A stretch of DNA of 64,000 nt from Lysobacterales bacterium (lineage in GTDB: Bacteria; Pseudomonadota; Gammaproteobacteria; Xanthomonadales; BPKI01), in NCBI GenBank assembly GCA_026005055.1, contig BPKI01000001.1, forward strand, positions 62,001-126,000. The letters run 5' to 3'. A program made the position numbers and the translations under genes. Positions 22,369 through 49,803 of this stretch are shown piece after piece (the stretch's first letter is position 1; the number at the start of each line of letters is the position of its first letter). The notes under the pieces are model-generated. The model saw nothing but the letters and a program-made list of their open reading frames with translations. It was not told the origin of the DNA and ran no database searches.

Positions 22369-24933
22369 TCAACCATCGCTTGGCGCCTCGACGGGCGGCT
22401 CCAGTCGGGCCCGCGCCTCTGGGCTGAGCTTCTGCACGGCATGGCGAAGTTCGCGCCGGAGAATCAGACGAGCGTCCTCGACCACCTGCGCGAGCTCATC
22501 GCCGAAGACCAGGCGACCGTCCTCATCGAGCTCGATCACCCCACGGTTCTTGAGCTCCTGCAAGAAAGCCCGGAACAGTGAGCGGTCGAAGTACTCCGGC
22601 GCGTTCATCTCGTAGACGAGCGTCAGCCGCTGTGCCGTCAGATGGCAAAGCTGCTCGACTTCGGCCATGGTCAGCGTGCCCGAGCCGTTCTTGACGAGCA
22701 CACTGAGAGCGAGGTAGTAGCGTTCGAAGGCTTGAAGCAGTCCGCGCGCGATCAGACGTAGCCGGAAAGCCCCGTCGGTCTGTCCTGCTTCACGCGACAG
22801 GATGCGACCCCCGCGGCTCTCGATGAGCAGTCCTCGTCGAACGTAGAAGCGGATGACCGCATCGAGCCGATCGCTCCAGCCATCCTCGTCCCAGGGCAGG
22901 AACAGCTCGTTGCGGATGTAGGGATAAACCAGTCGTCCCAGCCTGTGGATCGCCGCCCGGCTCATGCGCCGATTGTTGCTAAAGCAAAGGGCTACCCACG
23001 CGGCGTCGGCGATGAGGTGAAGCACGTTGTTGCGGTAGTAGCTCGCCAGGATCGCCTGGCGTTCCTCCATGGCGATCACATCGCCCAGCGGATGCTGGAT
23101 GCGGCGGAGCAGTCCGAGCGCTTCGCCGCGGGCGATGATGCCTCGCGCGTCCTGCTCGCACACGGTCACTCGATCGGAGAACGGGACCGAGCGGAAGAAA
23201 TCCCGCAAGAGCTCGAGATGAGCCGCGAGATCGCTCTCGGGCAGGGCCGCCTTCGGTGCCGAGAGCAAGGCAAGGGCGAGCAAGGCGACCGGATTGACGT
23301 CGGCCGCCTGATTGATGTTCTGAAGGATCCGCCGACCGAGCTGTTCGAGCACGGCTCCCCACCAGCTCGGCCGATCCTCACCCAGGGGCTGATCGCGCCA
23401 CCCGGGCGCCCAGCGATCGAGGATCTCCTCGAGCGGCACCGGTTCGCCGAAGTTCACCGTCACCGAGCCGTGGCGTCGGCGCAGGATGCGGAGAGAGCGG
23501 AGCAGCCCCCACCAGGACTCCCGCCTCTTCGGCTGTCCGGACAGCTCGCCGATGTAGCTCTCGACCTCGAAAACCTTCTCGTAGCCGAAGTAGACCGGCT
23601 GGAAGACCACTGGGCGCCGCGGAGAGGCCAGCGCGCCCCTCACCGTGATGCCGAGCATCCCGAGCCGAGGCGGAAGCAGGCGACCGGTACGCGATCGCCC
23701 CCCCTCGATGAAGTACTCGAGCGCCACCCCGCGCCGTACGAGCGCTGCCACGTACTCCGAAAAGACGGTGGAGTAGAGCGCGTTCGCCTTGAAGCTGCGT
23801 CGCAGGAAGAAGGCGCCGCCCCGCCTGAGCAGCGGTCCGAGCACGGGCAGATTGAGGTTGATCCCGGCCGCGATGTGCGGCGGCACCAATCCCCGCACGT
23901 AGAGCACGTAGCTCAGCAGCAAGTAGTCGATGTGACTGCGGTGACAGGGCACATAGACCATCTCCCGCCCCGGTGCGATCTCGCGCACGGTCTCGAAATG
24001 GTTGACCGCCACACCCTCGTAAATCCGGTTCCAGAAGGCGGTGAGCAGGAAATACATGCTGCGCACGAAGGGGTGCGAGTAATCGGCGGCGATCTCCCAG
24101 GCGTAGCGGCGAGCGCGCCGCGCCGCACGCTCGAGCGGGATGCGCTCCCGCTCCGCAGTCTGCTCGATCGCCGCGCGAACCGCCGGTGCGCGCATCAGTT
24201 CTCCGATCAGGGTCCGGCGGTGCGAGAGATCGGGGCCGATGACGGCGGAGCGCACGTTGCGGAAGTGCATTCGCAGGAGACGCGCGAGCCTGAGCTTCGC
24301 CCGCTCGGGGGGGAGCCCAGCCAGGCTCTCGCTCAGGTGGATCGGCGCACCGAACCGGATGTAGGTGTCTCGGCCATTGAGAAGGATCGCGAAGAAACGG
24401 CGAAAACGGCCGGCGAGCGGCCAGTTTTCGGCGAAGAGCACGCGAAACCACCCGCGCTGCCGCTGCGGTGCGCGTCCGACGAAGACCGAGACTGGCACCA
24501 GCGAGACATCGGACAGCACACCCTCCGCGTGCCGTTCGAGGATCAGTTGCAGTCGGCGAGAGCGCAGGAAAGACCGGCCCCGACGGAAGAGGCGCGGCCG
24601 CTTGAGCACCGCGAGCCACGCGCGCAGTCGAGGCGCGTTCGTGAGGAGGAAGGAAAAAGGCGAGGGTAGGCCGCGCTCACGGCACAACCGCTCGAGGATG
24701 AGGAGCGAGGAAAGACCCTCGCGCTCGAGCACATAGACGACCCGCCCCGGGGGAACTCGACGGTCGGCGTCGGGCGGGTCGCAATGGTATCGAATGAGGG
24801 GCTTCAGAAGCCCGCCGAGCAGGCGCAGCGGCCACGGCGGTCGCCCGACCGAGCCCTGCTCCCGCGAGCCGAGCTCCACGCCGCGCCCCTCGGACACCGC
24901 CTCATGCTGGCCGAGGCTGCCCCCCGAGCTCAC
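22369..24933 (-). CDS. plsB: Glycerol-3-phosphate 1-O-acyltransferase
   Basis: MVYVPCHRSHIDYLLLSYVLY, FFIRR-type GGAFFLRRSFKANALYSTVFSEY, YFIEGGRSRTGRLLPP; exact start uncertain. Confidence 0.93.
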   Translation of the reverse strand: MSSGGSLGQHEAVSEGRGVELGSREQGSVGRPPWPLRLLGGLLKPLIRYHCDPPDADRRVPPGRVVYVLEREGLSSLLILERLCRERGLPSPFSFLLTNAPRLRAWLAVLKRPRLFRRGRSFLRSRRLQLILERHAEGVLSDVSLVPVSVFVGRAPQRQRGWFRVLFAENWPLAGRFRRFFAILLNGRDTYIRFGAPIHLSESLAGLPPERAKLRLARLLRMHFRNVRSAVIGPDLSHRRTLIGELMRAPAVRAAIEQTAERERIPLERAARRARRYAWEIAADYSHPFVRSMYFLLTAFWNRIYEGVAVNHFETVREIAPGREMVYVPCHRSHIDYLLLSYVLYVRGLVPPHIAAGINLNLPVLGPLLRRGGAFFLRRSFKANALYSTVFSEYVAALVRRGVALEYFIEGGRSRTGRLLPPRLGMLGITVRGALASPRRPVVFQPVYFGYEKVFEVESYIGELSGQPKRRESWWGLLRSLRILRRRHGSVTVNFGEPVPLEEILDRWAPGWRDQPLGEDRPSWWGAVLEQLGRRILQNINQAADVNPVALLALALLSAPKAALPESDLAAHLELLRDFFRSVPFSDRVTVCEQDARGIIARGEALGLLRRIQHPLGDVIAMEERQAILASYYRNNVLHLIADAAWVALCFSNNRRMSRAAIHRLGRLVYPYIRNELFLPWDEDGWSDRLDAVIRFYVRRGLLIESRGGRILSREAGQTDGAFRLRLIARGLLQAFERYYLALSVLVKNGSGTLTMAEVEQLCHLTAQRLTLVYEMNAPEYFDRSLFRAFLQELKNRGVIELDEDGRLVFGDELAQVVEDARLILRRELRHAVQKLSPEARARLEPPVEAPSDG

Positions 24934-25814
24934 TCGGCCGCTTGCGGCTCCGCCATGCGCGCCTGGGCGATCTGCGCCAGGAGATCGCGGCCATACCAGC
25001 CGCCATCACGCCGGACCATGACCCCCTCCGAAACGATCGGTACACCGAGCATATTGAAGGTGGTGCGGACGGTCGCCTCGTCGCCCTTCTCGGCGATGAC
25101 TTCGACCTTGAGACTGTCGAGGGACTGATCGACGGAAAAGTCGAAGGCTTCCAGCAGACGCTTGAGGCCGGCGAGGACGATGCCGGACTTGAGAAGCAAC
25201 TGCTCGAACGACATGGCCTTGAGCTCCTCGAGATCTCGCATCCCGAGCTGCTCGGCCGTGGCCGCCGCCGCCTCGACGGCCTTGCGGATGCGGGCGCGGT
25301 CGTTGAAGGGGGTCTTGATCGCCCACTGGCTCATCGCTTCCATGATTTGCCGAGCCTGCTTCTTCTGCTCCGGCGAGAGATTCTCGTCTTGCTCGATCAT
25401 CGAGATGGCGAGACCGCTGCCCATCATGATCGCCATCGGCAACTGCGCCATCTGCTGATCGAGCTGCTGCAACTGTGGCTCGAGGGTCGTCATGATCGCA
25501 TCCACCGCACCCTTCTGGGTGAGGGTGGCCATGGCGGCACCGAATTGAGCCCGCTCCTCGTCGCTGAAACTCATCTCGGCGCGGATGCGATCCCACTGGG
25601 TGCTGAGCTCGGCGTACTCCGAGGGCGGCAGCGCCGCCTTGAGGAGCCCTGCCACGTCGTTGCGGCGGAATGCGGAATTGATCGAGCGAACGGCATCGAC
25701 CGGCGTGTCGAGCTTGGCCGGCGCCGCGGCATCCGCAGCCCCGTCCTGTTCGCGGCTACAGCCGAGGATCAGCAGAACGGAAAAGACGAGCAGGGCGGTG
25801 CGAAGACGAACCAT
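24930..25814 (-). CDS. Putative lipoprotein of unknown function
   Basis: MVRLRTALLVFSVLLILGCSREQDG lipobox LGC; 4-nt overlap with plsB. Confidence 0.75.
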   Translation of the reverse strand: MVRLRTALLVFSVLLILGCSREQDGAADAAAPAKLDTPVDAVRSINSAFRRNDVAGLLKAALPPSEYAELSTQWDRIRAEMSFSDEERAQFGAAMATLTQKGAVDAIMTTLEPQLQQLDQQMAQLPMAIMMGSGLAISMIEQDENLSPEQKKQARQIMEAMSQWAIKTPFNDRARIRKAVEAAAATAEQLGMRDLEELKAMSFEQLLLKSGIVLAGLKRLLEAFDFSVDQSLDSLKVEVIAEKGDEATVRTTFNMLGVPIVSEGVMVRRDGGWYGRDLLAQIAQARMAEPQAAE

Positions 25815-25881: not shown

Positions 25882-25915
25882 AAAAAACCCCGGTCGGCGT
25901 GGGTTCCGACCGGGG
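25882..25915 (-). terminator. Intrinsic terminator
   Basis: Minus strand CCCCGGTCGG-aacccacg-CCGACCGGGG followed by TTTTTT. Confidence 0.9.
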
Positions 25916-25972
25916 CCCGGCGCATCGCCGGAGTGGGAACGCATTGTCGTCGGTCACCGCTACTTCCGTAGC
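25882..25972 (-). ncRNA. Candidate intergenic small RNA with three hairpins
   Basis: Minus strand: TTGCAA-17 nt-TATGTT promoter (25980-26008), hairpin CGCTAC-GGAA-GTAGCG (25973-25958), hairpin CCGGCG-ATG-CGCCGG (25931-25917), then terminator. Confidence 0.5.
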
Positions 25973-26038
25973 GAGCTTCAACATACACTCGCGGAAAGTT
26001 TTTTGCAAGTCTTCTCAGGAAGAATCGCTATCTAACTG

Positions 26039-26755
26039 TTATGAAAGTGCTTTTTTTATTCGATCGGAGAGCTCCGCCACGGCTCGCCGGGGATCGGGCG
26101 CATCCCGGATCGGCCGGCCGATCACCAGGTAGTCCGCGCCCGCGGAGATCGCCTCGGCGACATCGACCGTTCGTTTCTGATCGTCGAGGTTGGCCACCGG
26201 ACGGATCCCAGGGCATACCAAGATCAGCGAGGTTCCGAAGCAGGCCCTTACCGAGGCCACCTCCAGCCCCGAACTGACGATGCCATCGCAACCCGCCGCG
26301 ATCGCAGCCCGTGCGCGCGAAAGCACCAGCTGCTCGACCTCGCACGCGAAGCCCAGCGCCTGGAGATCGGCGCGATCGAGGCTGGTCAGGGCCGTGACCG
26401 CGAGAACCTTGAGCGATCCCTTCGCCTCGGCTGCGGCCCGCAGCATCCCGTCGTTGCCATGGACGGTGACGAACTCCACCGGATAGCGCGAGAGCCCGCG
26501 GACCGCCCGGCCTACGGTCGCCGGCACGTCGAAGAACTTGAGGTCGGCGAAGACCTTCTTGCCGCGAGCATGGAGCTCCTCGATCAAGCGGAAGTAGTCG
26601 CCGCTGGTCAACAGCTCCATACCCAGCTTGTAGAAGCTCACGGCCTCTCCAAGCCGCTCGACCAGATCGAGCGCTTGTCCACGATCGGGCACATCGAGCG
26701 CGACGATGATCCGCTCTTCTGGGCGCAGCTCCGGGGTGGCGTTCGGCAGGCGCAT
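26039..26755 (-). CDS. pyrF: Orotidine 5'-phosphate decarboxylase
   Basis: RIIVALDVPDRGQALDLVERL; FADLKFFDVPATV; DYLVIGRPIRDAPDP. Confidence 0.93.
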   Translation of the reverse strand: MRLPNATPELRPEERIIVALDVPDRGQALDLVERLGEAVSFYKLGMELLTSGDYFRLIEELHARGKKVFADLKFFDVPATVGRAVRGLSRYPVEFVTVHGNDGMLRAAAEAKGSLKVLAVTALTSLDRADLQALGFACEVEQLVLSRARAAIAAGCDGIVSSGLEVASVRACFGTSLILVCPGIRPVANLDDQKRTVDVAEAISAGADYLVIGRPIRDAPDPRRAVAELSDRIKKALS

Positions 26756-49607: not shown

Positions 49608-49803
49608 GCCAGGCGTCCTCTGCGGTGTGCGACAGCGCGCTCAACAGTGTGCCTTGACCCTATCGACGACCTCGGGAAAGCGAGATCGCGTCCGGTGTGC
49701 AGGTCCGCTGCGAGCGGAAAGCCTGAAGGACACGTGAGCTTGCCCACCTGATCCCAGGGATCAAGGTCGTTTTGCGTGCACCGGCATCGCGGAGGGTGCC
49801 ACT
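49608..49803 (+). ncRNA. ssrS: 6S RNA
   Basis: Between zapA and fau; -10 TAGAAT at 49598-49603; 17-pair closing stem GGCGTCCTCTGCGGTGT (49612-) with GCATCGCGGAGGGTGCC (ends 49800); conserved CACCTGATCCCAGGGATCAAGG resembling E. coli CACCUUGAACCAAGGGUUCAAGG. Confidence 0.9.

Follow-up and report, generated by a model that had tools for sequence, protein, structure and literature searches.

A predicted small RNA gene downstream of pyrF, a putative divergent orthologue of sX14/sRNA-Xoo3, recurs across Xanthomonadales

The region between pyrF and a putative lipoprotein gene almost certainly holds, on the sequence evidence assembled here, a separate gene for a regulatory small RNA (sRNA) and not just the terminator of pyrF. 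The gene lies in a 64,000-nucleotide stretch of DNA (the window), and expression of the RNA in the window organism is predicted from its promoter, its fold and its relatives. The reading that best explains the data is that of a stand-alone sRNA gene, orthologous to sX14/sRNA-Xoo3 and present order-wide, whose product most likely acts as an Hfq-bound repressor pairing through a C-rich linker. We put the probability of this explanation as a whole at roughly 0.78.

A predicted sRNA gene between pyrF and a lipoprotein gene

The sequence, read directly, confirmed that the elements described in the original prediction are present in the gap that runs from the stop codon of pyrF (26039) to the start codon of the lipoprotein gene (25814). 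The features of the locus, by position in the window, are as follows.

26039..26755, minus strand: pyrF, orotidine 5'-phosphate decarboxylase, the upstream neighbour (PF00215, 160.7 bits)
25980..26008, minus strand: putative sRNA promoter, with -35 TTGCAA (26008-26003), 17 nt, and -10 TATGTT (25985-25980), scored with a matrix from 58 relatives
25882..25973, minus strand: predicted sRNA, ~92 nt, its start placed from the promoter and its end at the T6 run, from fold, covariance models and promoter matrix
25973-25958, minus strand: 5' hairpin CGCTAC-GGAA-GTAGCG (CGCTACGGAAGTAGCG), from sequence and fold
25931..25946, minus strand: conserved C-rich linker CAATGCGTTCCCACTC, anti-Shine-Dalgarno-like, a candidate pairing region (CAATGCGATTCCCCCTC in the relatives of family f12)
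25931-25917, minus strand: small hairpin CCGGCG-ATG-CGCCGG (CCGGCGATGCGCCGG), the most sequence-conserved element (CCGGC...GCCGG)
25882..25915, minus strand: Rho-independent terminator with a 10-bp stem, an 8-nt loop and T6, from sequence and fold
24930..25814, minus strand: putative lipoprotein gene, the downstream neighbour, without a Pfam family and beside plsB in many Xanthomonadales families
22369..24933, minus strand: plsB, glycerol-3-phosphate acyltransferase (PF19277, 343 bits; PF01553)

The terminator stem, CCCCGGTCGG-N8-CCGACCGGGG, occupies 25915-25888 and is followed by the T6 run at 25887-25882. The core of the linker, GTTCCCACTC, lies at 25940-25931 on the minus strand, and its last base, C25931, is common to the linker and the small hairpin. 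The fold of the sRNA region has a z-score of -3.64, with 1 of 200 shuffles equally stable. The linker had been described as unpaired; it is present and conserved, but the predicted fold of the window copy pairs part of it in a weak middle stem, where several bases have an unpaired probability of 0.06-0.14.

Scored with the matrix from the 58 relatives, from which the window was left out, the window promoter ranked first among 255,804 placements over the two strands of the window (19.1, versus 12.8 for the runner-up). The pattern in the relatives is TTGC/TTGA-N17/18-TA---T shortly 3' of the pyrF stop. A generic scan of the window for TTGACA/TATAAT and terminators detected neither the sRNA promoter, because just 8 of its 12 consensus bases match, nor the terminator, which is nevertheless evident by eye and by fold. 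The proposal that GCGAG...CTCGC forms an operator had to be abandoned: arms of at least 5 occur in 11.5% of the relatives and in 10.1% of shuffles, and the repeat is not conserved.

Two further features of the window were recorded. The short leader of the lipoprotein gene (25853-25815, minus strand) carries two inverted repeats directly before the ATG, GGAGAGAA-TGGGGG-TTCTCTCC and GGGG-TT-CCCC, a possible means of controlling lipoprotein or plsB expression locally. A 6S RNA lies at 49614-49799 on the plus strand (RF00013, 102.6 bits).

The promoter and the 3' half are kept in relatives

A DNA search with the intergenic region of the window against 61 genomes yielded no relative, the region being too divergent, and we therefore used pyrF as an anchor and read the sequence past its stop codon. 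In several families of Xanthomonadales, pyrF is followed by the same layout. A promoter comes first, then a 5' part that varies, a C-rich stretch, a hairpin of the form CCGGC-loop-GCCGG and, last, a terminator ending in a T run. This layout is absent from the pyrF loci read outside the order (e.g., Methylocaldum and Woeseia). The form closest to that of the window is found in family f12 (CAATGCGATTCCCCCTCCGG against CAATGCGTTCCCACTCCGG), whose lipoprotein, like that of f4, is 33-39% identical.

Two covariance models were built with the window excluded, R1 from six relatives and R2 from 37; their E-values are rough, since calibration was short. The best match of R1 in the window was 25945-25882 (25.9 bits, E 5e-5; next match, 11.2 bits) and that of R2 was 25946-25882 (31.4 bits, E 7e-6; next match within the window, 9.7 bits), so that a model blind to the window picks out the proposed RNA as the best match in 64 kb. 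In the R2 alignment, 95% of the cells pair, 11 of the 16 pairs are changed on both sides, and 86 cells carry two-sided changes, versus 20.6 in shuffles; these counts lean towards structure, because the alignment was fitted to it. The two-sided changes fall nearly all in the terminator stem, where 10 of the 11 pairs show compensatory changes in relatives, and the small hairpin hardly varies in sequence. When the 3' half was aligned with MAFFT, the terminators were misplaced. Promoter, linker, small hairpin and terminator are all conserved and, together with the compensatory changes, bear out an independent gene for an sRNA of ~90 nt; the fold stability, the promoter rank and the leave-window-out model all exceed what chance would give.

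With strict filters and E 0.01, R2 matched 143 of the 299 genomes of the order, about half. Where a type-1 pyrF was located, 65 of 69 genomes had the match directly 3' of it on the same strand, at a median gap of 143 nt. Beyond the order, 8 of ~227 genomes from the same class (~3.5%) gave weak matches (29-36 bits), with pyrF, the lipoprotein gene, plsB or uvrD near none of them. Score alone is therefore not decisive genome-wide; score, promoter and position after pyrF together are. In the whole-genome model search, the window locus was not among the matches listed at first look. A candidate paralogue in the window genome (G000, at 2085675; 24.4 bits with R1, 21.2 bits with R2) was rejected: it coincides in part with the end of a gene for a repeat-rich surface protein and with the terminator of that gene.

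Conservation of the two hairpins, a point on which the prediction could be judged, was uneven: the small hairpin is kept, and the 5' hairpin is lineage-specific in sequence. It occupies the same place in many relatives and shows compensatory changes in Xanthomonadaceae (UA/GC, GC/AU and CG/UA). That of the window has no sequence relative among the relatives compared, all of which are from other families. In family f9, the 5' hairpin loop of four loci (L048, L054, L138 and L167), GCACG(C/T)GGATGT, resembles a CsrA/RsmA site; other members have unrelated loops, e.g., ATTACATCGCACTGTAAC. Tentatively, and with somewhat less than even confidence, we suggest an order-wide core sRNA in which the 3' half (linker, hairpin and terminator) would be a fixed module for ribosome-binding-site pairing and Hfq, while the 5' domain would be exchanged or rewritten per family, giving different 5' binding domains by lineage.

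Relation to sX14/sRNA-Xoo3

The RNA had been proposed as undescribed, a claim that has to be given up. In genus g38, presumed to be Xanthomonas because its RF02233 scores reach 119 bits, the sRNA locus is that of Rfam family RF02233 (sX14/sRNA-Xoo3). The gathering score of this family (80 bits) was passed in seven genomes, and of the best matches for which pyrF was located (32), 30 fall 0-2000 nt downstream of that gene; the window RNA occupies the same slot, 3' of pyrF and in the same orientation. RF02233 and R2 match identical loci in four genomes (G001, G099, G183 and G286). R2, built with neither the window nor a likely Xanthomonas locus (L152), gave them nearly the same score (31.8 bits for L152 and 31.4 for the window). 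RF02233 itself has no match in the window at its gathering score (80 bits) or up to E 5, and none in the window genome at E 0.1. Since this threshold is failed, we do not file the window RNA in that Rfam family and call it a divergent orthologue. Judged by sequence, then, the window RNA is a putative divergent orthologue of sX14/sRNA-Xoo3, the family appears broader than its Rfam model, and the RNA is not wholly undescribed.

Nor did any other Rfam family score above threshold at the sRNA locus. The sub-threshold leads were set aside: P15 (RF00627; 16.9 bits, gathering score 70) and NsiR1 (RF02399; 19.0 bits) rest mainly on the CCCCGGUCGG terminator, and an anti-hemB lead was mainly a terminator match too. 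P15 matches of similar size are scattered over the genomes of the order, unrelated to pyrF.

Published work on the Xanthomonas RNA bears on its size and handling. sRNA-Xoo3 gives a Northern band of ~80 nt and, by 5' RACE, a length of 93 nt (PMC3039613), with which the size predicted for the window RNA (~92 nt) agrees. It peaks in early growth and drops strongly in an hfq mutant; its deletion had no obvious phenotype, although 26 protein spots changed, many of them related to oxidation-reduction or stress (PMC3039613). sX14 likewise accumulates to a much lower level when hfq is mutated, and complementation restores it (PMC3771888).

Alternative explanations

The RNA could be nothing more than a terminator, adorned with hairpins, at which pyrF transcripts end, or it could be a cis-acting leader or attenuator of lipoprotein-plsB, starting at 25973 and using the terminator as a regulated stop. 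Its position directly after pyrF on the same strand fits the former, and transcription of pyrF would also stop at its terminator. However, relatives keep a dedicated promoter with 17-18 nt spacing, the linker and hairpin are conserved beyond the terminator, and the 5' end of the Xanthomonas RNA was mapped by 5' RACE (PMC3039613). Moreover, four genomes of family f12 (G257, G212, G030 and G021) have pyrF elsewhere and yet keep the sRNA, preceded by a class B acid phosphatase gene (Pfam identification in L187 and L188) and followed by the lipoprotein gene and plsB. These f12 genomes, like the window and many relatives, still have the RNA upstream of lipoprotein-plsB, as a leader would be; against that role, the RNA follows pyrF with no lipoprotein or plsB gene within ~3 kb in L208 (likely Xanthomonas) and L209 (genus g51), and the next long frame downstream lies on the opposite strand in L150/L157. 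The genes flanking sRNA-Xoo3 are also differently oriented, and that RNA is discrete, at 80-93 nt (PMC3039613); in the window copy the terminator is perfect and no antiterminator is evident. Because the sRNA is kept both without pyrF and without lipoprotein/plsB, neither account is favoured: we judge the leader very unlikely and the pyrF 3' end even more so. The f12 loci L185-L188, with a divergent pyrF elsewhere, also provide an empty-slot comparison for operon rearrangement.

If an sRNA gene is accepted, its ancestry and mode of action could still be read differently. An unrelated sRNA might have come to occupy the same slot by convergence, as the failure of RF02233 to match the window and the completely different 5' halves would allow; yet the two RNAs share a promoter motif, a linker, a CCGGC hairpin and their position, the loci matched by both models bridge the two forms, and CAATGCG(A)TTCCC(C/A)CTCCGG is common to the window and its f12 relatives, which makes convergence quite unlikely. 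An RNA that titrates CsrA/RsmA is suggested by the GGA displayed in the 5' hairpin loop of the window, where CUACGGAAGUAG fits an ANGGA site, and by the f9 relatives with GCACGCGGAUG in that loop. A sponge of the CsrB/RsmZ type has several conserved loop GGA motifs, whereas the window RNA has one, and GGA is absent from this loop in most relatives and so is not the conserved feature. Conservation lies in the linker, rich in C, and in the terminator with its U tail, and Hfq dependence is known for the orthologue in Xanthomonas (PMC3039613; PMC3771888); we consider titration very unlikely.

Proposed mechanism and targets

We return to the stand-alone sRNA. Transcription would start from its own sigma-70-type promoter just past pyrF, and a terminator belonging to the sRNA gene would stop it short of the lipoprotein gene. 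The resulting RNA would combine a lineage-variable 5' domain with a conserved C-rich linker, the CCGGC...GCCGG hairpin and the U-tailed terminator. Bound by Hfq, it may act in trans, the linker pairing with G-rich ribosome-binding sites and blocking translation; the pairing, and ribosome-binding sites as its targets, are predicted from the linker. Given an sRNA, an Hfq-bound base-pairing repressor is its probable mode of action, because the C-rich linker, the stable hairpin and the U-tailed terminator, together with the Hfq dependence of the orthologue, make up the usual anatomy of Hfq sRNAs. The window genome encodes Hfq (100.9 bits), and the window RNA has its own promoter and a U-tailed Rho-independent terminator, as Hfq-dependent trans-acting sRNAs do.

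Pairing with ribosome-binding sites is our best guess for the linker. With crude gene calls, its pairing with start regions in the window showed no excess over shuffled linkers. Exact complements of the linker 10-mer were found at two other places in the genome, and both lie within coding sequences.

Comparison with known systems

The literature found describes sX14/Xoo3 as an RNA of Xanthomonas, so far known only from plant-pathogenic members, for which neither relatives (none is given in Xylella) nor a direct target are known and whose deletion has no obvious phenotype (PMC3039613 for Xylella and the phenotype). According to the sequence comparisons, this known but little-understood RNA is order-wide in Xanthomonadales. 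As an order-wide gene that is kept where its neighbours are gone, sX14/Xoo3 becomes a candidate core regulator; the breadth of the family allows a comparative alignment that separates conserved from variable parts and suggests non-pathogenic hosts for target finding.

The proposed mechanism resembles that of sX13 of Xanthomonas, whose C-rich motifs are used against G-rich ones close to translation starts (PMC3771888). In contrast to the window RNA, sX13 carries its C motifs in three hairpin loops and is Hfq-independent, and we found no homology between the two. The closer parallel is sX14/sRNA-Xoo3. The 5' domains of the two RNAs are unrelated in sequence and their linkers differ (UUCCCACUC in the window and GUCCACC in sX14/Xoo3), but both lie in the same-strand slot after pyrF behind a TTGC... 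promoter, have a mapped or, in the window, predicted length of ~90 nt and run from a 5' hairpin through a C-rich stretch and a CCGG hairpin to a U-tailed terminator.
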